Positions 20,455-62,577 of a DNA stretch of 64,000 bases are shown here, in pieces. Under the pieces are notes generated by a model. That model had not been told where the DNA came from. It worked only from the letters and a program-made list of their open reading frames with translations, and ran no database searches. Source of the stretch: Aedes albopictus (taxonomy: Eukaryota; Arthropoda; Insecta; Diptera; Culicidae); NCBI RefSeq assembly GCF_035046485.1, contig NC_085136.1, forward strand, positions 220,724,853-220,788,852. The letters run 5' to 3'. Position numbers and translations under genes: made by a program. How positions within the stretch are numbered: position 1 is the first letter of the stretch; each line of letters opens with the position of its first letter.

Positions 20455-20722
20455 TTCTTCTTCTTCTTCTTCTTCTTCTTTGTGGCTCTACGTCCCCACT
20501 GGGACTTGGCCTACCTCGCTTCAACTTAGTGTTCTTTGAGCACTTCCACAGTTATTAATTGAAGGGCTATCTTTGCCTGCCATTGCATGAATTTGTATAT
20601 TGTGAGGCAAGTACTATGCCCAGGGAATCGAGAAAATTTTCTCGACAGGAACGGGAATCGAACCCGCCGTTTCCGGATTGGCGATCCATAACCTTAACAA
20701 CTAGGCTAACCCAACGTCTCCC
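20455..20722 (-). mobile_element. tRNA-derived SINE with (AAG)n tail
   Basis: On the minus strand: 'gttgggttagcctagttgtt' with a TAGCCTAGTTG A-box, then 'cgggttcgaatcccgttcc', a clear B-box. The body follows, with a 3' tail of about eight AAG units (20457-20481 as CTT). It differs from Feilai in head and tail. The flank 'gtccccc / gtctccc' may be a target duplication, but I cannot set it exactly. Confidence 0.8.
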
Positions 20723-29663: not shown

Positions 29664-32600
29664 CTGCGGGGAGAAAAGGTGAAAATAGTAATAAAAAGGT
29701 TTCAGTGTAAATGTACATGTTTGAGTGAACTTGCATTTATAATAATGGTCAAACAATTGCCATCAAAAATTAATTAGACTTAGCAGTTACATTTTTACAA
29801 TTCTCATCAACATAAACAGGTCAGTGTTCTGGATATCTGGAATGTAGATAACCCCTATCAACTATGCCGCCTCCGGACTCGTGAGCGACTGCACGCACAT
29901 GCACAGCGTGACACTGTAAAGATTACACGCTAATAAAACCGTTCCGAATTTCGTCAACCTTCAGCCACGAATTTTGGAACAAGCTGATTTTTCCTTTACA
30001 AATATACACCGTGATTTAATATCACGGAACCGAGAACTATGTTCAGCAAATCATGCGTAACGCCTGCGTTACGGAACAAAAATCATAAAAATGTAGTTTT
30101 AGTTCCGGTAATTGTGGTTCGGTTCATAGAAACTAGAACTATGTTCACGGTTTCGTTCTGGTTATTGAGATGGTTATCACGAAATCAGGAACGTACTTCA
30201 TGGTCTGTTTTCAGTATGAGACCTGAGCAATTTTCGTTTTCTTCATTTTTGCGACAATCAACAATTCAACACATAATAAATAAATAGCTTTAGGTCGAAT
30301 TTTAAAACAGCATGTTATTTTGAGGGATAAATTACCTTTTTCTATGACTTTACAATGCTTTTTAGCCTGCTCCGTCATAGGGAAGAGTCCATATCACAAC
30401 AATAATTCTATCCAATCTCCAATCCCAACAGCAGCTAATCCAAAGAAAGCTCCAACATACACTTGTTTGCACAGCTCTATCTTTTCTTTTAAAATAACAG
30501 ACACAAGAATTTGTGTGGAGTGCAATGTATAATAAGCAACATGTCTTTAGCGTATTTTAGAGTGTTGCCCCCAATCTACTAACGAACCGAAAACAGCCTT
30601 TTTCCAAGTAACGCCTAACGCCCTGCTGTCAGCGCGTTGTCAACCAGAACAAGGTTGGCCATGACTTTTCCTCTTTCTTCGGTTGGCCGTCGGACGCACC
30701 GGACGCATCGTTGCTCGCTACAGCAGACCACCAGTGGGTCAAAGCCGGACTTGCTCAATGGCGAACCTGCCAGGTTTATTGCGAATTTTCGCAATAAGCT
30801 GTGGCTTGCACTGGAGATTTGTAAGTATAATAAAGTGAAAAAAGTGAATCCCGCGGCTGGTGATTGTCGTCTGCAAGCAAATGTCGCGCATTGTTGGTCG
30901 TTTTTCACCAACATTTTTCATTAAAAAAACAGAACGTGAAAGGGTGAATAAGATAGAAATGTGTTGTTTAGTTTGGCAATTGAAAATGGCCGGGGAGCCA
31001 GAGGGAAAGTTTTTGAAGCGATATTGCTGGTTCCGGCTACTGTCGGAGGCGCTCTGGAAGAGCGCCGGAGTAATTCGGATCTCGGGTTCGAATAGGAAAA
31101 GTGGCCTGGAGGGCCACCGCAATATTTTTGTTTCGGCTGGTGATGCCGAAGGCGCTCTGGAAGAGCGCCGGAGTGATTCGATTTTGGGATCGAATAGAAA
31201 CGTGGCCTGGAAAACCACTGCAATGATTTGGTTTCGGCTGGTGATGCCGAAGGCGCTCTAGAAGAGTGCCGGAGTGATTCGATGTCGGTATCGAACAGAA
31301 ACGTGGCCTTGGTTTGGTTTCGGCTAGTGATGCTGAAGGCGCTCTGGAAGAGCGCCGGAGTTATTCGATTTCGGAATCGAACAGAAAACTGGCCTGGAGA
31401 GCCACCGAGTTGCTTAACATTTCGGCGGGTGATGTCGAAGTTGGTCTGGAAGAGCGCTGGATTGATTTTATATGGGGATCGAATTGTAAAAATGGCCCGG
31501 ATAGTCATCGGATTATTTCGGTTCTGGATGGTGATGCCATAGGCGCTCTAGAAGAGCGCCGGAGTGATCCATTAAGCAAATGTAGCCTTGAGAGTCACCG
31601 AGTTTAGGGTTCGGCTGATGACGCCGAAGTCGCTGGAGTGATTGAATTACGTCATGGTTTCAAATAATCAAAGATGGTTTCTGAAGAATCACCGAATTAT
31701 TTTGGCTCCGGCTGGTGATGCCAAAGGGTTGTAGTAAAGCACCACCGATTACAGAATAGATAAAAATAAAATGCTACTGATTTGTAGTTTTGGATTCAGA
31801 TGGCGAAGGTACTCTAAAGTTCCCCACACAATGCATACGTTTGCGTGTGCGTAACAGTAGTTTGACACATTTCCCATGAGAAAACGGTAAAAAAAACGCA
31901 AACCATTAATTTTGATGTTATTAGGTCCGCCCAGGAAGAGCGATTAAATAGTTTTTGGATCGAAAGATGGAATATTCTGCAAGCCTTCAGGGTTACAGAA
32001 CACTGTAAAAAAAGTTTTTTTTTATTGTCCGCTTTACTCTACATTTTGATGCAGGAAATGCTGTACAAACGATTAGTGATCTTGATGACGATGCAGAAAT
32101 GTTGAATTTGGAATTTGGTGTATTCAGTGAACGCAGAATATGGCACCGCAAGCAGAAAATAGGCAACAAAGAAGGCGCGGTAACAACGGTTTGTATTTTT
32201 TTTCGTAAAAAAATGACATAGATCACTCAAGAGTTTATTTGCCAGAAAGGCAGTGTCTCGCACTGTTTACACCGTGATTTTCGTATTGTTTTACAACTGG
32301 AATTCGAATTTGAGGTGTGCAAGAGTCGTATTTCGATAGTCGAAAATTTCTGCAGAAAACCCGGAATATAGACACACGCACAGCAAGTGATGTTTGTTTT
32401 ATTGCCATCGTCGCAGGATTTGCGTTTGTTGCGGAGCGCTTTTGTTGCCAACATACACCGCTTAGGGCTAAGTGTTTGTTATTCGGCGCAGTCCGCTTAT
32501 GCGTACCCCTGGATGTATTACTGTTTAGCTATCGAGGCCCTGTTTCAAGAAATTCCTATGATTTATTGAAAATGACAATCTGAACAGTTCAATCGCATTT

Positions 32601-35600
32601 TCCAACGAACGAAGTTTGATTTCTGAAAGCGAGTATTGTTAATGATATGCTAAACTATCTCGTAAACAGTTTCTCCGATAATAATCCGATAATGCAGCCA
32701 ATTGGAGAAAGGCGATTGAAAAATAACGAGACAATGCGCAAGGTCACAAATCCTATATTTTTAAGGAGTTGGACTTACAAAACATTAAATAGTTTCTGTC
32801 ATCACGTAAGCAATATGTAAAATAACTTGACTTGACTAATAGGGCTGTAAATAATATTCGATTATTTAAGTACTTAGTCTACACGAGATTCTCAAAACAA
32901 CGATAAATAAAAGGTACTTAACGGTAGAATGGTTCACAAGGACTAGTTCTCTTTAGAGAACCGTTCAATCGAGAACGATTTCCTTAAAGTTTTACCCATT
33001 ATTTCTAGACCAGTATTAAAAATCAGATCGTATGAAAAATCGCAAAAAGTATAGGAATTTGGAAAACAGAAAAGTTAGTGAATTGAAATTGAGAATTGCT
33101 CTGAAATGTATTATTTTTGTAAAATTCCGGATTCGGAGTGTATTTTCACTAAGAAATTGTGCAACAAATATAAGAAGTGCACTATCGTGAGACTAAAAAT
33201 TTGGATTCTTGTGCAACGTTTAGTAGTTCATGCTCCCGATGTTTAGGGAAAGCAGAGCAGAAATGATGGTGCACTTTGAATCCCGGCACTCCAGAAGTGG
33301 TATCCGAGCACTCGGATTTAAAAATGATAAAAGTTTTGAAAGCAAATCAGATATATTTTCATTGTTGAAAAAACGAATCTTGGCTGACAGGACAATTTCA
33401 TTAGGATTAAGAAGAGGGATGGCAAAGCCAAAAATCAGCATTCGATTCAACATGGCGTTTATTATGTTTGGATGTTTTATTGCTCAATTCATAGGAAAAT
33501 GAGCTTGAAGCCTCGCTGCTGCGTATAATATCATGCAAAGTAATAAACAAAGAGAAACAATCATCAAAACTAATGATTTCAATTGAATAGTGTATTTTTC
33601 AAAATAAGCACTAGCAACGCACGAGCCTTATACCCGAAAATGAAGAATAAGTTATGGTAAACCGACCTATCTGGGACTTGGTTAGTCTTCCTATATTAAG
33701 AATTTAACATTCATAATATGTGTTTTCAGCTCATTAATGTGTTTGCCGAGAACTTGCCGGCATGCACAGTGCGATGCTAAGGAGCCTATGTACAATCTCA
33801 AGTGCTTGTCTCCCTTTTTGCCGAGAGACAGAGATGTATGAATGAATGACGTATGAAGCCTTTTGTAACTTTGCGAGAGACAAATCGCAGCACTAGCTCT
33901 ACTATTGAGGACGCATAGAAGAATGCACAGTGCATTTGATTGATGCTTTCAACTAACAAAAAGACACTTGATAAACTAATTAGAGAGTTTTTGTTTTCAA
34001 CAAAGTTGTTAGGCTTGTCCAGGACTTACAACTGATGGATCGATTGATTTACAATCTTATCAATCTTGCGTAGAGTGCCAAGCACAGAAAAGCACAGAGA
34101 GAGTGCACTCCACAGAGAGTGAGAGACAGGATCTCTAGCACACTGCAAAGGAAGTGTGTAACACACAGCCAACTGCACGTACTCGCTTCCTTCTGATTTG
34201 TTGTGCAGCTTCGTGGAGCGTTTGCGGCGCACAAAGAATTTTGAGTCGCATCCTATCACTGACCCAAAACAGTTCAGTAGAGGCCTCAAGGGTAGAAAAC
34301 TTTAATGGTATGGTATTTGAAGCAGTTAGTATATAATGGTATTCGTCCCTCTTCATAATAAAGAGTGTCTGATCGATAGGCCTGGAAACTAAATACATGT
34401 ATCGAAGATATGAATTCCTCCGAAGAAATATTATTGCATGATGATAGCATTTTACAGAGTTCGATAATACCAACAGAACATTTCTCTCATTATTTTGGTT
34501 TCGTTTCTCTGTATTTCTCTGTAGGCCGATATTCGATTGTACATGGTTGTCGGACGAGTTTTACAGATTGGTTTTAAGAAAAACAGTGTAGCAAGAACTG
34601 ATTTGTTTATTCTCCGAGTAGATTATAGAGCGATCAACAGATAAAACTCGATTAATTGCAAGGGGAAGACAGCTTTTGCCCTTCAACTTGCTCTAAAGGT
34701 AGGCTTAGAGCAGCTCGTGTTACTCGTTTAAGAATGCTCATAGCCACATGTTAATATGTTGGATCCGTGCCTGTTAATGATAGGTTGCAACATGCGTTTA
34801 TATATAAACTCTAGAACGAGACGTGGACGTTCAAAGGTGTCTCTGTTCAGCAGAGCGTGATGCAGCTCAAATCCCAACCACGATCAGGTTTTCTCTGTAC
34901 TGTAAACTTCGTCCAGTTCCTGACCGGATGTAGTGTAAATAACCCGTAAATCGGTGACACGGGAGTACTCATCGCCTGTTAAAGATTGCTGATCTACACC
35001 CAAAAGTAGTTTGTAACGGCTAGATAGCAGTCTGATAATACATAGTAAAGTTGAAAGACTCCAGAAATAGATATCATCTGAAGTCGATAAAAGTGGCTCA
35101 GACTATATAATCTTCCAGTTAGACTGTTATTGTGAGTTTATTAAGTTTAGATCGAAGCTGAGGCGAGATTCGCGAGAAGAGAAAAAATAACGTCAAGTGT
35201 AGCCCAAATTCAGCTGTCATGAAATGACAGTTGCAGCTCGTTGGTTTTGTGACCGAAAACAAGGATCTTTGTCTTATTTTTTTTTAGAGAGGAGGAGGAG
35301 GATGTGTGGAGTGCAATGTATAATAAGCAACATGTCTTTAGCGTATTTTAGAGTGTTGCCCCCAATCTACTAACGAACCGAAAACAGCCTTTTTCCAAGT
35401 AACGCCTAACGCCCTGCTGTCAGCGCGTTGTCAACCAGAACAAGGTTGGCCATGACTTTTCCTCTTTCTTCGGTTGGCCGTCGGACGCACCGGACGCATC
35501 GTTGCTCGCTACAGCAGACCACCAGTGGGTCAAAGCCGGACTTGCTCAGAATTGTTTAATTATGAGCAAAAATACTTAATTTAAATCACTTCTCAGCACT

Positions 35601-45149: not shown

Positions 45150-45868
45150 TCCAAGGAACAAAGATAAGTGACATTCTCCTTGGGTGTCCATCCCCTAGCA
45201 AGCTTCGATGACAGAAAGCATCATGACGAGGTGGGAAATGTGATGATACCTCATTGAGGAGTGAAGTTTTGGCGGAGCAAGTCGCCTGCATCGCGAAGTC
45301 CCGTATCATTCCAAGTGATTCTACTTTAGTTTGCTGAAATGGAAATGGAACGGGTTGTTCTTGTTCCAATCAGTTACACAATCTTCACATCGTTGAACAA
45401 TTACAATCTTATCAGGATGCTGTTATCAATCATTATTATCTGATAAATTATAAGTAGTTTTGCCCTTGTTACTATTATTATTGCGTAACTCACCGGATCA
45501 ATCCGTTTCACGCCATCTTAGCAAACTACAGTGGAATCACTTGGCATGATACGGGACCTCGCGATGCAGGCGACCTAGGATAGGATGTGACAACAGAAAT
45601 TCGCCTGCCTTGTTATTTTTTCGTTCGATTTCGTCGACGATGGAAATCTAGTGCTGCCGTTTTTCTTTATTCTAAATCTTTCAAACGATTGAAATTTTGG
45701 ATTCATATTTTGCACCGTAAATTATTAATTGCACCTGGAATAGCATAACTTGCTTTCAACCAATCGGCGACTAGTCTCCGTTTGACAGCAAAATGGTCTC
45801 AAATCGGCTGACTACGTGACGCATCCTATCCTAGCAGGCGACTTGCTCCGCCAAAGCTCCTCTCCTCA
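45150..45868. repeat. Inverted pair around a MITE
   Basis: 45242-45335 ('ttggcggagcaagtcgcctg', 'tcgcgaagtcccgtatcatt') recurs inverted as 45520-45574 plus 45835-45868, separated by the MITE 45575-45834. 45160-45247 also recurs inverted at 50461-50560, just outside the large inverted repeat. Confidence 0.75.
45575..45834. mobile_element. MITE with 8-bp target duplication (260 bp)
   Basis: CTAGGATAGGATG at 45575 is inverted as CATCCTATCCTAG at 45834. Exact duplication CAGGCGAC (45567-45574, 45835-45842). The surrounding inverted copy confirms the empty site. Confidence 0.9.
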
Positions 45869-48800
45869 ATAGGGCACTGCACGCCGCGGTTGCTAGGGAA
45901 AATTCTTTTAAGTCCTTGACGTTTCGTGGCCTTGTTGTTTACGATTTGGACTTAGAAAACTTTTGCTGGTTTTACTGAGGTGCACCCAGGTGGGCAGGGT
46001 GGCTTTGATTGAAATTATCAACGCGTGGTTCGTGGGTGGCGGAATGCGCGCGTTCGGGCTCCTACTTGCAAGATTATGAAACCTGACTTGACTACAGTTA
46101 TGAAGTTCAGCAATTTGTAAGGCATGATTAGCTGATGTCAGGATGAATCATTGACCACATGGTCATCACTGGCCACTCCGGGAACTTCCGGGATGATCCG
46201 AAACAACCTGGAGAACCGGTGATAGGGGTCAATTACGTTTATTTAGCAAAACATGATGAAAAACACCACGGCTCTTTTTTTTATGATTTTTCGTCAATTC
46301 ACTTGTGACTGCATAGCAATACTGGCCATGGTTCCCATGTGCCACTTCCGAAACTTCCGGGATGCCCTGAAGAACCGACATTAGAGGATAATCATATTCT
46401 AACAGAAAAATGTGTCATGCGACGGATCTTCCTTCATGAATTTTCATAGATATGTTTGAGGTTGTATCGATGCTAGACATGGCCCCCATTATTGGCCACT
46501 TCTGGAACATCCAGGTACCCGACGGAAACGACAACAAAAGCTAATTACGATCATACAACAAAACATGTAATGTGACCATCATGATTTTTAATTCCTATGT
46601 ATGTGGTCGTATCAAAAGTGGCCACACTCTTGGTTGACCATTTCTGAAAATTTCTGGGGCGCCCTGAGGGAACCGATGGCCAGAATCAATTTGGTTCATT
46701 CAGCAACGGTTTCATCATGTTTTTCGAGAATATGCTTGTGGTTACTGCTAAAACTTAGAGAATGCCCTCAAGAGACTGATGGCATATTGAACAAACGCGT
46801 TCATATGACAAAATGTGGTGTGTAACGCATCTTGGCTAGGTCCAGAGAAATATCTGACAGGATAAAATAATGCCTGATGGAACTTCCGAAGGATTCCCTG
46901 GCGTAATTCCTGGAGGAATCCCTTTCAAAATGTTTGAAGGCATCCTCAACGGAATTTCTTGAGAAACGTCCATCTGGGAATTCCTCCGGGTTCTCCTCCT
47001 CCAATTCCTCCAGGAGTTTCTCTAAGAGTTCATCCTAAATTTTTTCCTTAAGTAAGTATGAGAGTTTCTTCCAAAACTTCTCCGGGAATTTCTTCTGTAA
47101 TTCCGCACAAAGTCCTTCCTGGGACTCCTCTGGGAGTTTCTTCTTAAGTTCCTCTGGAATTCCCCCCGGCAGTCCCTTTTAAATTACACCAGGAGTTTCA
47201 CGTAGAATTTCACTGTGAGTTGTCATAATTTCCCTCGAGAGTTTATGCTGAAATTCTTCCACAGGCAGTTTCTCATGAAATTCCTTCGGGAATTTTCCCA
47301 GGAATTCCTACGGAAGATGCTTGTAGAATTTCTTTAGTTCATTCTAGAATATCTCTGGAAGTTCCTTCTGAAATTCCTCCGAGAGTTCATCCTGGAATTC
47401 TTCCGGGAGTTCACTCTGAAGTTCACGCGGAAACTCCAACGGTAGTTCGACCTAGAATTTATCTGTGAGTTCGCCATAGTATTCCTTCAGAGTACCATCC
47501 GGGAGTTTCCTCCTAGAATTCCTCTTGAAATTCCTCATGGAACTTCCTGGATCCCAAAAATGCTTCAGGAGTTTATCACAGAATTGCTCGGATGTTCCTC
47601 TTGAAAAACATCCGGGAGTTCCTTCAGGAAATCTTCCGGAAGTTCCTCTGGAAGTTCGTCCTGCAATTTCTCATAAAGTTGTTTCTGGAATTCCTTCTGG
47701 AATCCTTCTAGGAGTATCTCTGGAGTTAATCTGAGAATTCCTCAAAAATTCCTCCTTTCTTACCGAAATTTCTCTGAAGGGTCACTTTGAAATACCTTCT
47801 GAAATTCCCACAGGAGTTGCTCGTGAAATTTCTCATTAAATTTCACAGGGGACTCTACTCTTATTTCTTAGGGGGGTTTGCCTTAGAATATCTCTAGGAG
47901 TTTCTCCTAAAACTGTGGGACTTCCTGTTGAAATTCCTTCTGGAGTTCCTCCTCCTCTGAGAGTTCACGCTGGAGCCCCTACGAGAGTTCATCCTGAAAT
48001 CCTCCGGGAGTAAGTCATAGTATTACTTCGGATTCTCCACTTGAATACTCTCCACGAGTATCCTCCTGGTACCTCTATGAGAGTTCCTCGAAGATCCTGG
48101 AATTCCTCTATGAGTTCGTTATATTATGTCTTCGGATGTTCCTCTTGAATACCCTCCTGGAATTCCTTCGAGAGTTCCTCATGAAATGTTACCAGGAGTC
48201 CCTTCTGAAATTTCTCTAGGAATTCCTTCTGGCAGATCCTCCTGGAAATCATCAGATAGTTACTCCTAGAATTCCTGCGGAAATCCTTTCGGTAGTTCCT
48301 CCTGAAACTACTTCGTGAGTTCATCCTAGAATTTCACAGGGAGTTTCTCATGATATTCCTGCGAGAGTTTATGCTGGAATTTCTTCGGGAGTTCCTTCTT
48401 GAGTTTCTTAGGTTATCATTTTGAAATCCCTGGTGAAACACTACGCACAATCCTTTACGAAACTCATGGAATGATACATGGTGGAGCTTCTGGAACAATA
48501 ACTGGCACAGCATCTGTCAGAAATCACCAGCGCCACAAATTATTTTTAACGACTTTTGATAGGGATTTCTCCAGGAACAAGACCAGGGAATCTCCCAGAA
48601 GTTCCTTAACTTTGGTGTAGCTAGAGCGGCCACCAGGATCCGTACAATCAGTGGAACATTTGAAGAAATACTCTTACGAACTCTCGAAGGTATTACAGGA
48701 AGGACTACCGAAGGAATTCTAGGAGAAATCGCCATAGGAATTTTGGGAGGAAATCCCAGGGGAACTTCTACGGAAATTCCAGGTCAAACTCCCGTGGGAA

Positions 48801-50460
48801 TTTCAGGAGAAACTTCAGTTGACTTTCTAGGAGAAATTCCACGAGCAGCTCCCGCAGGAATTCCTCGAGGAAATCCTGAAGGAATTTCAAAAAAATAACC
48901 TAAGAAACTCAAGAAGGAACTCCCGAAGAAATTCCAGCATGAACTCTCACAGGAATTTCAGAAGGAACTTCCAGAGATATTCTAGAATGAACTAAAGAAA
49001 TTCTACAAGCATCTTCCGTAGGAATTCCTGGGAAAATTCCCGAAGGAATTTCATGAGAAACTGCCTGTGGAAGAATTTCAGCATAAACTCTCGAGGGAAA
49101 TTATGACAACTCACAGTGAAATTCTACGTGAAACTCCTGGTGTAATTTAAAAGAGACTGCCGGGGGGAATTCCAGAGGAACTTAAGAAGAAACTCCCAGA
49201 GGAGTTCCAGGAAGGACTTTGTGCGGAATTACAGAAGAAATTCCCGGAGAAGTTTTGGAAGAAACTCTCATACTTACTTAAGGAAAAAATTTAGGATGAA
49301 CTCTTAGAGAAACTCCTGGAGGAATTGGAGGAGGAGAACCCGGAGGAATTCCCAGATGGACGTTTCTCAAGAAATTCCGTTGAGGATGCCTTCAAACATT
49401 TTGAAAGGGATTCCTCTAGGAATTACGCCAGGGAATCCTTCGGAAGTTCCATCAGGCATTATTTTATCCTGTCAGATATTTCTCTGGACCTAGCCAAGAT
49501 GCGTTACACACCACATTTTGTCATATGAACGCGTTTGTTCAATATGCCATCAGTCTCTTGAGGGCATTCTCTAAGTTTTAGCAGTAACCACAAGCATATT
49601 CTCGAAAAACATGATGAAACCGTTGCTGAATGAACCAAATTGATTCTGGCCATCGGTTCCCTCAGGGCGCCCCAGAAATTTTCAGAAATGGTCAACCAAG
49701 AGTGTGGCCACTTTTGATACGACCACATACATAGGAATTAAAAATCATGATGGTCACATTACATGTTTTGTTGTATGATCGTAATTAGCTTTTGTTGTCG
49801 TTTCCGTCGGGTACCTGGATGTTCCAGAAGTGGCCAATAATGGGGGCCATGTCTAGCATCGATACAACCTCAAACATATCTATGAAAATTCATGAAGGAA
49901 GATCCGTCGCATGACACATTTTTCTGTTAGAATATGATTATCCTCTAATGTCGGTTCTTCAGGGCATCCCGGAAGTTTCGGAAGTGGCACATGGGAACCA
50001 TGGCCAGTATTGCTATGCAGTCACAAGTGAATTGACGAAAAATCATAAAAAAAAGAGCCGTGGTGTTTTTCATCATGTTTTGCTAAATAAACGTAATTGA
50101 CCCCTATCACCGGTTCTCCAGGTTGTTTCGGATCATCCCGGAAGTTCCCGGAGTGGCCAGTGATGACCATGTGGTCAATGATTCATCCTGACATCAGCTA
50201 ATCATGCCTTACAAATTGCTGAACTTCATAACTGTAGTCAAGTCAGGTTTCATAATCTTGCAAGTAGGAGCCCGAACGCGCGCATTCCGCCACCCACGAA
50301 CCACGCGTTGATAATTTCAATCAAAGCCACCCTGCCCACCTGGGTGCACCTCAGTAAAACCAGCAAAATTTTTCTAAGTCCAAATCGTAAACAACAAGGC
50401 CACGAAACGTCAAGGACTTAAAAGAATTTTCCCTAGCAACCGCGGCGTGCAGTGCCCTAT
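45869..50460. repeat. Large inverted repeat, 1.51-kb arms
   Basis: Left arm 45869-47379 and right arm 48951-50460 are reverse complements that look identical apart from a one-base length difference. The same 74-codon frame occurs at 46601-46825 (+) and 49504-49728 (-), and the same 67-codon frame at 46801-47004 (-) and 49325-49528 (+). The pairing resumes inside (48359-48430 with about 48880-48949), so the left side carries an extra ~980 bp (47380-48358). The outer third is unique-looking; the inner part is GGAATTCC minisatellite. No transposase. The ends are ATAGGGCACTGC. Confidence 0.9.
46890..49400. repeat. GGAATTCC-type minisatellite, copy 3 (core of the inverted repeat)
   Basis: About 100 degenerate ~24-bp units of GGAATTCCTCCGGGAGTT character on the left, switching to the complement on the right at about 48600. 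Confidence 0.85.
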
Positions 50461-50560
50461 GAGGCAGTTTCACACTGACAACGTCGTCATGGTACTGGCT
50501 GTCACTTATGCTTGCTAGGGGATGGATACGCAAGGGGAATAACACTAAACTATATTCACA

Positions 50561-52030: not shown

Positions 52031-52037
52031 TGTTATA

Positions 52038-52991
52038 CAGGGTGTTAGGTTCCTGAGTGCAAACTTTTTAAGAGGTGATAGAGGACCATAAATGGAGAAA
52101 AAAATTGTTCTACGCATATGGTCAAATCTCAACCGTTACGTAGTTATTGAACTTCCCATGTTAATGATTCTTATTGCCTTAACTGGCAATAACTTGAAAA
52201 TGGTCAAACTTATCGAAGTTTTTTTACCCTTATTCGAAAGATTATTGAATTTTCTAACAAATGGCATCTTTGAATCGATTGGTTTAGTTAAATAACTAAG
52301 TTTTTTAAAACAAAATAGCTAAAAATAGTGTATTTTTATTGGGTTTTGTCAATTATCTTTGAAACATGCGTAATAAAATTCTTTCTTTGGCAAAGTTGTG
52401 GCCCCTGTTACACTCTACAATTCGTTCTTTGGCACCAAACTTCTATCTCTTATCGTTTTGTTGCAATTTTGATTTTAACATCGCATTTCAGATCATAAAT
52501 TTGCAACTGTCATGGAAAGCACTTTTTTGCGCATTGTGCCGCACATTTAAATCAAAATTGCAACAAAACGATAACAGCTAGAAGTTTGGTGTCAAAGAAC
52601 GAATTGTAGAGTGTAACAGGGGCCACAACTTTGCCAAAGAAAGAATTTCAATTTATTACGCATGTTTCAAAGATAATTGACAAACCCCAATAAAAATACA
52701 CTATTTTTAGCTATTTTGCTCTAGAAAACTTAGTTATTTAACTAAACCAATCGATTCAAAGATGCCATTTGTTAGAAAATTCAATAATCTTTCGAATAAG
52801 GGTAAAAAAACTTCGATAAGTTTGACCATTTTCAAGTTATTGCCAGTTAAGGCAATAAGAGTCATTAACATGGGAAGTTCAATAACCACGTAACGGTTGA
52901 GATTTGACCATATGCGTAGAACAATTTTTTTCTCCATTTATGGTCCTCTATCACCCTTTAAAAAGTTTGCACTCAGGAACCTAACACCCTG
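52038..52991. mobile_element. TA-flanked palindromic element (954 bp)
   Basis: CAGGGTGTTAGGTTCCTGAG at 52038 is inverted at 52991, with TA outside (52036-52037, 52992-52993). The arms of ~440 bp differ at only a few bases (the same 67-codon frame occurs on both strands, with one visible residue change). The loop is about 70 bp near 52480-52550. A decayed single-arm relative lies at 2940-3115. Confidence 0.9.
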
Positions 52992-53019
52992 TATAAAAGT
53001 TACGACAGTGCAAGTTAGG

Positions 53020-53473: not shown

Positions 53474-53475
53474 TA

Positions 53476-54424
53476 CAGTGTATCAAACAATTGTCCGTAC
53501 AGCAATTTTTTGGCCAAACTAATTTTTCATTCAAATAGTCATAACTTTTTTATACGTTATTCAAAACCGCTGAAATTTTGACCAATCATGAATCATGTAT
53601 TATAACTTCATTGGTAAAATTTTGAGCGAGATCGAATAAGTTTTCTGAAAGTTGTAGAACTTTTAGAAAAACTTATAAGATTTTTGAACACATTTTTAAA
53701 ACATTATATCTCAGTATGTACCCAATGAAACTTTTTCAATTTTTTTTTTGTGTAACAGCTGATACCCAAGACTTCCATATGCAGCTACTTTTGAGGATTT
53801 CTATTCACTACAAAAAATATGAAAAATGTGCTTATGTAGTTGACGATGTTTAAAAATTTATCATATTTTGCACATATAATCTGCCAAACGTTTTCCACCA
53901 ATAAAAGTGCATTAACTGAACGAAAAATATATAGAACCTACTCTTCATATGTAGTTTAGTAGGTCCTGTATAAAAATATTACATTAAGCGAATTTAAAAT
54001 CGTTGAAAACACTTGGCACTTTTATTGATCAAAATATGATAAATTTCCTAATGACACTCTGAACATATACAGATATTTCATATTTTTTGTAGTGAATATA
54101 AAAGCTCAAACGAAGCTGCATATGAAAGCCTTAGGTATAAGCTGTATCGCAGAAAAAAAAATGAAAAAGTTTCAATGAGTACATATTGAGATATAATGTT
54201 TAAAAAATGTGTTCAAAAATTTTATAAGTTTTACTAAAAGTTCTACAACTTTCAGAAAACTTATTCGATCTCCCTCAAAATTTTACCAATGGAGCTTTGA
54301 TATATGGTGCATGATTGATTAAAATTTCAGCGTATTTGATTGATGTATAAAAGAGTTATGATCAATTGAATGAACAATTATGTTGACCAAAAAATTGCTG
54401 TACGGACAATTGTTTGATACACTG
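53476..54424. mobile_element. TA-flanked palindromic element with Tc1-like ends (949 bp)
   Basis: CAGTGTATCAAACAATTGTC at 53476 and its inverse at 54424, TA on each side (53474-53475, 54425-54426). The arms are about 430 bp and somewhat diverged. CAGTG...CAAA ends resemble Tc1/mariner relatives (family knowledge). It splits the R1-like LINE reading frame, which confirms the ends. Confidence 0.9.
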
Positions 54425-54426
54425 TA

Positions 54427-57762: not shown

Positions 57763-57942
57763 TGTAGGGTCTGGATCAGTGACGCACGAACACACCTGAC
57801 GCGAGAGGACTTTGGATTGGGGAGTGCGCGAGGAAACGTGATTAGTGGCGGCTGCTACGAGGAAGCAGAGAATCCGGATTCTGGCGGTTACCTGGACCAG
57901 AAGGCAGAAACCATCGAAATGTGGTCACCGGCGGATACTACA
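57763..57942 (+). repeat. 5' LTR of element B
   Basis: 180 bp, TG...CA, matches 62398-62577 except for the third base. The 73-codon frame over it is a by-product. Confidence 0.9.
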
Positions 57943-57944
57943 AA

Positions 57945-57962
57945 TGGCGACGAGGATGAAAA
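57945..57962 (+). promoter_or_regulatory. Primer-binding site of element B
   Basis: TGGCGACGAGGATG, two bases after the LTR. It shares TGGCGA with element A. Confidence 0.65.
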
Positions 57963-58685
57963 ACCGTGAGTAAAACGAACCAAATTTCTTATCATTTGAA
58001 AGAAAATCAAATGAAAAAAAAAAAAACGATGAGGGAGAGAGGTGCTGAGTGACGTCTTGCTGAATGCCCTACTGCAATTGAAAACAGGTTCGGATGAGGG
58101 CAGTCGGGACGTAACGTATACACGGAAAATTAGCAGATTTCGTTGTTGTTTTATGTGGATGACTCAGTGGATGATAATTCACTGATTATATGTCGAACGT
58201 TTTAGATTTTTTTAGGTTGCATAATGGATTGGTTGGATAGCGTCTGAGACTAATTCAGTATGTAAAAAAAAATGTAAGGTTTACCCAAGGGTTTACCTCT
58301 TATTTTGAAAATTTTCTTTCGGAAAGCTTTGACCAAACCTCGGACTAAAGCTTTGTGTACCTTGAAGGAAAAAAGAGCAACTGATTCGTGCATTAAAAGT
58401 TGGGGCTGTGGAATAAACACTTTTGACCTGTTTTGGGAGTCATATAGAATGGTCTTTGACGCAATGGATTGGGTCTTGTTAATTTAAATAACAAAATTTA
58501 ACTTTATCAAGGGAGTGTAAAACGGTCTATACCGGCGTAGTGTGCCAGTTTATTTTTCACAACTCCCATCGATCACATCGTCGCATCACAGCTTCAAAAG
58601 ATATGTATGTGCAACCAAATAAAGTTTCGATCAGTACTTGGTTCGGTATCATCATCACTAGAGATTTTTGAATTTATTAGTGTTC
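57963..58685 (+). other. Leader of LTR element B
   Basis: A/T-rich, with a 60-codon frame at 58305 that I do not recognise. In an autonomous relative this region would hold the packaging signal (inference). Confidence 0.4.
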
Positions 58686-60670
58686 GCTGATTTGGGAATC
58701 AGTTGATTGGTTCGAGAATCAATCGAACTATGTCGATTTGGGAATCGACCTGTGGTTGCTAATTTGAGAATCAGTTGATTGGTTTGGGAATCAATCGAAA
58801 TATATCGATTTGGGAATCTACCTGCAAAATTACTGATTTGGGAATCAGTTAATTGGTTTGAGAATCAATCGAACTTTGTCGATTTGGGAATCGACCTGTG
58901 GTTGCTGATTTCGGAATCAGTTGATTGGTTTGAGAATCAACTGAAGTATGTCGATTTGGGAATCGACCTGTGGTTGCTGATTTAGGAATCAGTTGATTGG
59001 TTTGGGAATCAATCGAAATATGTCGATTTGGGAATCGACCTGAGTTTGCTGATTTGGGAATCAGTAGATTGGTTTGACAATCAATCAAAGTATGTCGATT
59101 TGGGAATCGACTTGAGTTTGCTGATTTGGGAATCAGTGGATTGGTTTTACAACCATTAAAAATATGTCGATTTGGGAATCGACAAGAGTTTGCTGATTTG
59201 GGAATCAGTTGATTGTAGATTGGTTTGACAATCAATCAAAGTATGTCGATTTGGGAATCAACCTACAAAATTGCTGATTTGGGAATCAGTTGATTGGTTT
59301 GAGAATCAATCGAACTACGTCGATTTGGGAATCGACCTGTGGTTGCTGATTTGGGAATCAGTTCATTCGTTTGAGAATCAATCGAAGTATGTCGATTTGG
59401 GAATCGACTAGAGTTTGCTGATTTGGGAATCAGTTGATTGGTTTGGGAATCAATCGAAATATGTCGATTTGGGAATCGACCTGTGGTTGCTGATTTGGGA
59501 ATCAGTTGATTCGTTTGAGAATCAATCGAAGTATGTCGATTTGGGAATCGACTAGAGTTTGCTGATTTGGGAATCAGTTGATTGGTTTGAGAATCAATCG
59601 AACTACGTCGATTTGGGAATCGACCTGTAGTTGCTGATTTGGGAATCAGTAGATTGGTTTGACAATCAATCAAAGTATGTCGATTTGGGAATCGACTTGA
59701 GTTTGCTGATTTGGGAATCAGTGGATTGGTTTCACAACCATTACAATATGTCTATTTGGGAATCGACCTGAGTTTGCTGATTTGGGAATCAGTAGATGGG
59801 TTAAACAACCATTAAAAAAATGTCGATTTGGGAATCGACAAGAGTTTGCTGATTTGGGAATCAGTTGATTGGTTTGATAATCACTCAAAATATGTCGATT
59901 TGGGAATCGACCTGAGTTTGCTGATTTGGGAATCAGTAGATTGGTTTAACAACCATTGAAAATATGTCGATTTGGGAATCGACTTGAGTTTGCTGATTTG
60001 GGAATCAGTTGATTGTAGATTGGTTTGACAATCAATCAAAGTATGTCGATTTGGGAATCGATCCGAGTTTGATGATTTAGGAATCAGTTGATTATTTTGG
60101 CAATCAATCAAAATATGTCGATTCGGGAATCGAGCTGAGTTTGCTGATTTAGAAAACAGTTTATTGGTTTAAGAATCAATTGAAGTGCATATGTTCGTAG
60201 TTACTGATTTGGGAATCAGTTGATTGGTATGACAATCAATCAAAGTATGTCGATTTGGGAATCGACCTGAGTTTGCTTATTTGGAAATCAGTTAATTTGT
60301 TTCACATTCAATACAGAATGTCGATTTGGGAATCGACCTGAGTTAGCTGATTTAGGAATCTGTTGATTGATTTGAGAATAAATTGCAGCTTGTCGATTTG
60401 GGAATCGGCCTTAGCTGCTGATCGGATGATTGGTTTGACAATCAATCAAAATATGTAGATTTGTGAATTGACCTTAGTTGCTGATTTTGGAATCAGTTGG
60501 TTAATTTGAGAATCGATCGAAATATGTCGATTTGGGAATCGACCCGAGTTTTCTGTTATGGGAATCAATTCATCGGCTTGAAAATCAATTGAAGTGTCGA
60601 TTTGGGAATCGACTTGAGTTTGCTAATATGGGAATTAATTGATTGGTTTGAAAATCAATTTTAGTTTGTT
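58686..60670 (+). repeat. Hairpin array of element B (72-bp unit, ~27 units)
   Basis: GTCGATT recurs at 58878, 58950, 59022, 59094 and 59166, exactly 72 bp apart, and onward with small indels. Each unit is three stem-loops in fixed order: GTCGATT-TGGG-AATCGAC, then CTGATT-TGGG-AATCAG, then TTGATT-GGTTTGAG-AATCAA. The three stems have different sequences but each pairs with itself. Some units replace the third by TGGTT-TTAC-AACCA or by TTGATTG-GTTTGA-CAATCAA, which also pair. Decay increases towards 60.2-60.7 kb. The period is a multiple of 3, so the minus strand stays open for up to 136 codons. Confidence 0.92.
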
Positions 60671-62382
60671 GATTTAAGAATAAACATTGGTTTGCTGAGT
60701 TGGGAGAAACTTATCCATTGAATCGAAGGTTGTTTACTGATTTGGGATTCAGTTCAACTATTTGAGAGTCTGTAAGGTAGTGTTGATTTGGGAGTCTTTG
60801 AGACATAGACAGGATCGAAATGATTTGGAATACGTGAGTTAAAAAAAATCAAGTGCGTAGAAGTCTATTAAAATATTATACTGCTTTGGGGACCAGTTAG
60901 TGGACTTGAGAACCAATAAATTAATGATACGATTAAATTGGATTAGGCTAGGATCCACTGATTTAATTATTTCTGTTAGTCGATTTAAGAAGAACTGACT
61001 GGTATTTATATTTTATAGGTTCGAGAAGCAAATATGGAGTACAACTAAGATGAATAACTTTACCAAGTAGTAGTAGTACATAGTTCAAGTATAAGATGAT
61101 CAATTCCACCAATGGATTTAGAGAACAGCCAACTGAAAAAAAAAATGAATGTTAAAGTCTTGTATGGGCTACTAATTGGTGTATCGGTTAATCCATTAAT
61201 CCTTGGATTACTGGATGTGAAGATAGAATTTTTTTATTTAAGAATAAATTGAACAATTTGATTTGTTAATCGATTTCTGTCTAACGGATGTAATTCAGTG
61301 AATGGATAAGACTAATGGAGTTACATATTTGGATTCGAACATCGATTAGTTTGTTGGTACTCAAACATCATCTGGTTCGATATTTTATGGAATGAGACAA
61401 TGGAACACTAAGTTAACAAATATAGCATAGAATTATTGTTTTAACCTGGTTCTATCGAGTGTTGTAGAAAAAGGATTGCTCGGAGTTGCTACGGATTTCA
61501 CAGGGTCTTGCTCCTAGTGCGGGTTTATGTTTTTGGATATGTTAGTGTTTGAGATTATGAGGTGTACAGTTGTAGACTTGTGAAGTTTTCTTAGGTATAT
61601 TTTTAGGTGATTAGTTAAACGAGCATGGCAGTTGAGAGTGTCTGGGAAATAAATGCGATCTGCTTTTCAGTGAACTACAGTTGACGTTCGATAACTGCAA
61701 CAGGTTTTAGTTCTACTTAGCGAACGATTCAATAACTGCAACGTCTGATAGACGTCAACTTTCAATACGTTAAAGTTAAACTAACGTTCAGTTTACCAGG
61801 CTGTTGATTTGGGCTAACTTGGAGCATCATTATGACGGATAGCGGTGCAATAACTGCAAATTTGTTTAACTTAACAGACTTGAAGTTAAAAAGCATTGCA
61901 GTGAACTGTTTGCACAGACCGAACGTCTACTGTAGTCTGATCTTTGATTTTGATAGTTTTTTCTAAACTTGAAATCTCACGGAAATAGCATTTTTTTCGA
62001 TATTTTTTTTCTGAACTTATATGCAGAATATTAGTTTACATTTTTAACGCGCTATAGTGCCGTGCCATGTAACAAAACAAAAAATTAAAAAATCAAGTGG
62101 AAGGAGGGGAAGTATCATACTTTTTGGGGTATGTCATACACAAGTCTAATTGTTTAGAATTTACGGACGATATAAGATACGAACAAGCACATAATCATTG
62201 CTTATGGAAGTAGGTATGCATCATATGATAAGTGGCTCGGCAGGATGAATTAAGATATAAAGACTGCACTCAATTATGAGGCATTTTATGACATCAGGGA
62301 TGGTATCAATATTCTTCGGAATGTTATATGGCGTAGCTTCTTGTAAAATGAAGTATTATAATTTTCATATTTTTCTTGATTT
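60671..62382 (+). other. 3' interior of LTR element B, no coding sequence seen
   Basis: A/T-rich, with stray gatttggga-like motifs up to ~60.8 kb and no conserved protein motif on either strand. Confidence 0.6.
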
Positions 62383-62397
62383 AGAAGAAAGGTGGGA
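62383..62397 (+). promoter_or_regulatory. Polypurine tract of element B
   Basis: AGAAGAAAGGTGGGA ends directly at the 3' LTR. Confidence 0.8.
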
Positions 62398-62577
62398 TGC
62401 AGGGTCTGGATCAGTGACGCACGAACACACCTGACGCGAGAGGACTTTGGATTGGGGAGTGCGCGAGGAAACGTGATTAGTGGCGGCTGCTACGAGGAAG
62501 CAGAGAATCCGGATTCTGGCGGTTACCTGGACCAGAAGGCAGAAACCATCGAAATGTGGTCACCGGCGGATACTACA
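62398..62577 (+). repeat. 3' LTR of element B
   Basis: See 57763-57942. Followed by GGCTC. Confidence 0.9.

Follow-up and report, generated by a model that had tools for sequence, protein, structure and literature searches.

LTR elements at the locus

The window analyzed here, a 64,000-nucleotide stretch of the Aedes albopictus genome, contains two LTR retrotransposons. The element designated E1 is complete and spans positions 57763-62577 (4815 bp), with LTRs of 180 bp each that run from TG to CA and are 99.4% identical. Its LTRs lie at 57763-57942 and 62398-62577, and the target-site duplication GGCTC flanks it on both sides. This confirms a first-pass annotation of this DNA, which had placed a repeat array inside an LTR element. 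The other LTR element in the same window, E2 (30512-35548, 5037 bp), has LTRs of 246 bp with 100% identity and the target-site duplication GAATT. Judged on their sequence, E1 and E2 are both young LTR elements. Directly after the 5′ LTR, each carries TGGCGA..., a putative primer-binding site, and the polypurine tract of E1 contains one T. Their features are as follows.

57763-57942, plus strand: E1 5′ LTR, 180 bp, TGTAGGG...TACTACA, 99.4% identical to 62398-62577
57945-57956, plus strand: E1 primer-binding-site-like sequence TGGCGACGAGGA, directly after the 5′ LTR
57966-57971, plus strand: E1 candidate splice donor GTGAGT, 24 nt past the LTR
58682-60689, plus strand: E1 array of three-hairpin, 72-bp units (n = 28), with decayed extra units to about 60918
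62378-62397, plus strand: E1 T-rich tract ending with AG, then polypurine tract AAGAAAGGTGGGA, preceding the 3′ LTR
62398-62577, plus strand: E1 3′ LTR, pairing with 57763-57942
30512-30757, plus strand: E2 5′ LTR, 246 bp, TGTGTGG...CTTGCTCA, 100% identical to 35303-35548, with the GAATT duplication
30759-30769, plus strand: E2 primer-binding-site-like sequence TGGCGAACCTG, following the 5′ LTR
30776-30797, plus strand: E2 leader hairpin TTATTGCGA-ATTT-TCGCAATAA, from a hairpin scan
30821-30826, plus strand: E2 candidate splice donor GTAAGT, 64 nt past the LTR
31048-31725, plus strand: E2 array of four-hairpin units of about 101 bp (n = 7), from TRF, folding and profile
35283-35302, plus strand: E2 T tract ending with AG and polypurine tract AGAGAGGAGGAGGAGGA, preceding the 3′ LTR
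35303-35548, plus strand: E2 3′ LTR, 100% identical to the 5′ LTR

The two elements share an architecture of short LTRs, a length of 4.8-5.0 kb and a 5′ array of multi-hairpin units. Sequence similarity between them is limited to short chance matches (best E 0.25), and a single family comprising E1 and E2 was rejected on this basis.

Coding potential of the element interiors

Coding sequence was not found in the interiors of E1 and E2, the basis for E2 being Pfam and frame lengths. No Pfam family was matched at its cut-off by any of 10 stop-free pieces, four from E1 and six from E2. The longest stop-free frames, of 162 amino acids in E1 and 208 amino acids in E2, both lie on the minus strand, within or across the arrays.

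Because 72 bp corresponds to 24 codons and one minus-strand frame stays open for 162 amino acids, the E1 array could be read as encoding a protein of 24-residue repeats. Plus-strand frame 2 is also open in the consensus, with 63 synonymous changes counted by cells compared to 45.8 expected. The count of distinct changes gave 25 synonymous changes compared to 26.1 expected in the minus-strand frame and 25 compared to 22.4 expected in plus-strand frame 2, indicating that the excess by cells reflects the shared ancestry of the units. Frame-shifting indels among the E1 units also speak against a repeat protein, as does the plus strand of the E1 interior, where all stop-free stretches are 69 amino acids or shorter. 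A search for homologues of the E1 frame returned none at E ≤ 0.001, and its weak Pfam matches were all below cut-off. On the codon test, the homologue search and Pfam, a protein-coding E1 array was rejected and is, in our estimate, extremely improbable.

Structure of the hairpin arrays

TRF placed the E1 array at 58682-60659 with a period of 72, 27.6 copies and 81% matches, and tiling carried it through 28 units up to 60689, followed by decayed units that a profile search located at 60732-60796 (E 1e-4) and 60880-60918 (E 1.2e-4). Within the array, GTCGATTTGGGAATCGAC occurs 25 times at no more than 2 mismatches, 19 times exactly, compared to an expectation of 0.01. The consensus unit contains three hairpins: H1 (GTCGATT-TGGG-AATCGAC) and H2 (CTGATT-TGGG-AATCAG), which are probably related to each other, and a third, TTGATT-GGTTTGAG-AATCAA. 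Three hairpins were reached in 0 of 5000 shuffles. The first-pass description of a 72-bp unit with three hairpins, repeated about 27 times, was accurate. Perfect hairpins, defined by a stem of at least 6 and a loop of 3-8, number 51 in the 1979-bp array, while 20 shuffles gave a mean of 3.75 and a maximum of 12. The accompanying figure of about 80 stem-loops was too high, as there are 51 perfect sites with a 6-bp stem and 59 with a 5-bp stem. Distant units of the array are closely related, its 3′ edge is decayed and frame-shifting indels are present.

On either strand, a 721-nt piece of the E1 array had a better fold than each of its 20 shuffles (z −6.5 for the plus strand and −11.3 for the minus strand). 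In the minimum-energy fold of the plus strand, local hairpins occur alongside long-range helices that join different units, indicating that the cores pair between units too and that the simple chain of stem-loops envisaged by the first-pass annotation does not describe the predicted RNA. For H1, a homodimer was predicted at −18.5 kcal/mol, compared to −6.0 for the single hairpin. The replacement of whole stems by TGGTT/AACCA, reported earlier for variant units, is real in 4 of the 28 units (59116, 59701, 59772 and 59916), with pairing limited to GGTT/AACC in unit 59772. TGGTT exists in ordinary units already, however, and 59116, 59772 and 59916 are linked to one another as nearest units, so that the swap looks like roughly one event.

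The E2 array is built from four different hairpins, namely GGCGCTCT-GGA-AGAGCGCC, ATTCGATC-TCGG-GATCGAAT, GTGGCC-TGGAG-GGCCAC and TTCGGC-TGGTGAT-GCCGAA. Perfect hairpins number 11 compared to 0.55 in shuffles, and the array folded as plus-strand RNA with a z of −5.6. The E2 consensus contains four hairpins when the third is taken in its first-unit form and three as printed by TRF; with either form, three hairpins were reached in 0 of 5000 shuffles. This third hairpin is the weakest, being paired in 69% of cells. The hairpin design recurs in E2 with unrelated sequence and is therefore no peculiarity of a single array. The earlier interpretation is supported in part, by a hairpin design far beyond chance that lies within an LTR element with no detectable coding and recurs in E2.

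Across both arrays there are seven hairpin types whose stem sequences differ, and every one of them has GG in its plus-strand loop. GG was present in 47 of 51 loops in E1 and 9 of 11 in E2, compared to 13 of 138 elsewhere in the window (46 of 322 when 5-bp stems were included), counts that are to be read knowing that the motif was chosen after inspecting the loops and that the E1 loops are for the most part mutual copies. CC was found in none of the loops of either array and in 12 of 138 elsewhere. Hairpin density reached 25.8 per kb in E1 and 16.2 per kb in E2 compared to 2.25 per kb in the rest of the window. For six further tandem arrays checked within the window, the density was 0-9.2 hairpins per kb, the top value representing 1 hairpin in 109 bp.

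Conservation and covariation of the stems

Stems vary less than the spacers between them in both arrays. Changed cells in E1 amounted to 51 of 1050 in stems, 51 of 446 in loops and 92 of 493 in spacers, and distinct changes per position were 0.97 in stems compared to 1.83 in spacers (p = 2e-4). The corresponding values in E2 were 0.59 and 1.04 (p = 0.02, or 0.05 by cells). When the stem mask was slid around the unit, an equal or better result was obtained at 2 of 72 positions in E1 and 1 of 101 in E2, the true position counted. Counted as distinct changes, loops were not clearly better conserved than spacers (p = 0.17 and 0.12), and in H1 of E1 the loop and stem were equally conserved, with 0.036 of cells changed in each.

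Single changes in E1 stems mostly break pairs, producing 39 broken cells and 5 wobble cells. Covariation in E1, assessed on two alignments, was limited to 3 double-sided changes, compared to 0-4 pairs in slid controls; as many were obtained in 16 of 500 shuffles. Among the 7 units of E2, pairing survives changes on both sides at 4 pairs, a result matched in 13 of 500 shuffles and compared to 0-3 in slides. One of the 4 is the loop-adjacent pair of the second E2 hairpin; four units have it as CG, UG, GU and UA, and in two units it is unpaired. Taken over both arrays, 8 of 9 double changes restore pairing, and in all these counts the related units of an array are not independent. The covariation check suggested by the first-pass annotation thus gave no excess over slid controls among the E1 units alone, and a moderate one among the E2 units, so that putative covariation in the E2 array is moderately supported by its alignment. 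Wobble-making distinct changes were 13 of each kind in stems and 15 and 33 outside them, where there are 25 C+A and 54 G+T positions; once composition was allowed for, no plus-strand preference of wobble-making changes was present.

Relation to known elements

Coding-less LTR elements are known from other organisms. The LARD elements of plants are large, without coding capacity, and thought to be mobilized in trans; to our knowledge, they are not defined by tandem arrays of hairpins. TRIM elements are likewise coding-less and mobilized in trans, and are much smaller than E1 (4.8 kb) and E2 (5.0 kb). The gypsy element of Drosophila is autonomous, unlike E1 and E2, and we know of no tandem hairpins among its insulator sites. 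The gypsy leader insulator does resemble E1 and E2 in having tandem sites downstream of the 5′ LTR (cited in PMC3286476).

The closest match in structure is a set of 38 coding-less LTR families with tandem repeats, termed cqUNK, that was described in Culex quinquefasciatus in 2012 (PMC3286476). According to that description, their LTRs are more than 98% alike and measure 125-390 bp in 33 of the 38 families, and a primer site, a polypurine tract and a target duplication of 4-5 bp are found where determined (PMC3286476). Examples are cqUNK_14 (4105 bp, LTR 176, period 93 × 16.7) and cqUNK_28 (5520 bp, LTR 197, period 72 × 12) (PMC3286476). E1 and E2 resemble these elements in being coding-less, with short LTRs, a target duplication and tandem repeats between the LTRs, and they are of the cqUNK kind by structure, as compared by description only. 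The Culex families had no known master copy, regulatory roles or passive mobilization were discussed for them, and their tandem repeats had no settled explanation (PMC3286476). The word hairpin is absent from the main text of that report, and no account of pairing within the repeats was found in the sections consulted (PMC3286476). The earlier statement that no LTR element of this design had been described does not hold for coding-less LTR elements with tandem repeats, known since 2012 (PMC3286476), and applies at most to the hairpins. As far as the literature was searched, the hairpin design is what is new in E1 and E2 compared to the Culex elements; among the titles and abstract openings listed, with the subscription literature mostly outside the search, no description of hairpin or stem-loop arrays in LTR elements was found. 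Exact-pattern searches for relatives outside the window gave 0 matches in viral and genome contig collections, neither of which is meant for insects, and this is not evidence of absence.

Retroviral packaging signals offer a further likeness, since those of HIV-1 (SL2 with GGUG, SL3 with GGAG; PMC7599994) are short hairpins of the 5′ leader with an exposed loop G. The 5′ portions of the E1 and E2 RNAs are likewise predicted to form hairpins in which a G is exposed. The HIV-1 signal comprises few hairpins, whereas E1 has 28 × 3 tandem sites, and a Gag gene was not found in E1 or E2, making the retroviral signal an analogy rather than a class to which the arrays belong.

Interpretation of the hairpin arrays

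We tentatively read the hairpin array as a multivalent RNA signal for packaging by a helper Gag, and hold this reading at well below even confidence. The predicted hairpins, their location, the common loop motif and the lower variation of the stems are observed. The combination of unlike stems that keep their symmetry, a shared G-rich loop on the strand of the transcript, a 5′ position and the absence of recognizable genes suggests a platform for a zinc-knuckle protein supplied in trans, of which helper Gag is the simplest candidate. E1 and E2 would then be non-autonomous elements moved by the proteins of an autonomous helper, and we infer a plus-strand transcript displaying many short stem-loops with G in the loop (UGGG in E1; GGA, UCGG, UGGAG and UGGUGAU in E2). 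The arrays start about 740 nt (E1) and 290 nt (E2) past the 5′ LTR, within the 5′ region that in retroviruses holds the packaging signals, and would bind the nucleocapsid part of the helper Gag, whose zinc knuckles would read the unpaired loop G. Repetition would raise avidity, giving the parasite RNA the presumed advantage of outcompeting helper RNA for packaging, and the partly self-complementary cores may aid RNA dimerization. This is consistent with the binding of HIV-1 nucleocapsid to exposed guanosines of the GGAG and GGUG loops (PMC7599994). Replacement of the GGAG loop did not significantly affect HIV-1 packaging (PMC7599994), however, and this result, together with E1 covariation that does not exceed the slides and the lack of a wobble strand preference, counts against a packaging signal, as does the stronger fold of the minus strand of E1.

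Almost as likely is that the arrays are neutral passengers, in which slippage, unequal exchange or template switching by reverse transcriptase amplified a hairpin segment and template-switch mutations made the stems perfect and kept them so. The kinship of distant units and the decay of the 3′ edge are normal for minisatellites, E1 covariation does not exceed the slid controls, and tandem repeats without an assigned function are shared by the 38 Culex families (PMC3286476). Template switching is known to create and maintain hairpins (PMC8794818), in work that concerns DNA replication and that we extend here to reverse transcription. Neutral amplification fits less well with stems that vary less than spacers in two unrelated arrays, with an H1 loop conserved as strongly as its stem, with GG loops common to two unrelated elements, and with six other checked arrays that are not hairpin-rich. 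Conversion between the core shared by H1 and H2 could explain part of the conservation in E1.

Packaging and neutral amplification are both more likely than DNA-level sites, control of splicing or export, or a decoy role. An enhancer or insulator made of palindromes to which a chromatin or transcription factor binds, comparable to the tandem sites of the gypsy leader, would account for arrays downstream of the 5′ LTR and for the conservation of H1 as a whole 18-bp word, and a regulatory function of the repeats was proposed for the Culex elements with reference to the gypsy insulator (PMC3286476). Such sites are nevertheless unlikely, as each of the three different half-sites of E1 and the four of E2 retains a dyad symmetry of its own, something that a single dimeric factor would not require and that would fit base pairing better than a fixed DNA half-site, and as loops with GG and not CC point to a strand-specific bias. 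Still less probable is control of splicing or nuclear export, with an interior that is nearly all intron and a structured array that keeps the unspliced RNA intact or exports it. GTRAGT lies 24 nt (E1) and 64 nt (E2) past the LTR, and 3.4% of 100-nt windows contain one. In both elements the polypurine tract comes after a T-rich stretch that ends in AG (AG sites 62384 and 35287), so that the interiors may be introns (57966-62384 and 30821-35287) whose removal, if it occurs, would leave a TRIM-like mini-element. This splice-site pattern was found after the fact, and T-rich boxes before polypurine tracts also arise for other reasons. As a nuclease or small-RNA-pathway decoy, or as a scaffold for condensates, double-stranded or hairpin RNA would draw on cores able to pair between units and between molecules; the 6-8 bp stems fall far short of the length of Dicer-type substrates, nothing specific to such a role was found, and we regard it as very unlikely.

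Should the packaging reading apply more widely, the interiors of a class of coding-less LTR elements would have converged on arrays with as many as dozens of G-loop hairpins, a selfish super packaging signal drawing in helper Gag through avidity, with fast-evolving unit sequences in which the hairpin and loop are kept, many of the Culex repeats included; we consider this extension doubtful. If the tandem repeats of such coding-less elements are made of hairpins that share a loop, they would form a naturally occurring series of multivalent RNA-protein binding sites, and packaging theft between genome parasites would become testable in cell culture.

Other features of the window

The window also carries a 152/308-bp tandem array at 1914-2920, with about 6.5 copies of 152 bp and 5 hairpins. 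Inverted repeats of 1.56 kb at 45864-47423 and 48906-50464 are 99% identical and form a foldback-like element, and further long inverted repeats, 87-98% alike, are located at 21733-22584/22863-23719, 6820-7354/7480-8014, 52033-52996 and 53474-54426. An open frame at 9503-10261 matches a Mutator-like transposase in Pfam (PF20700, E 7e-48). The single Rfam match at the gathering threshold in the window is a tRNA at 20643-20715, annotated as tRNA-Gly (GCC) on the minus strand at 20642-20716.
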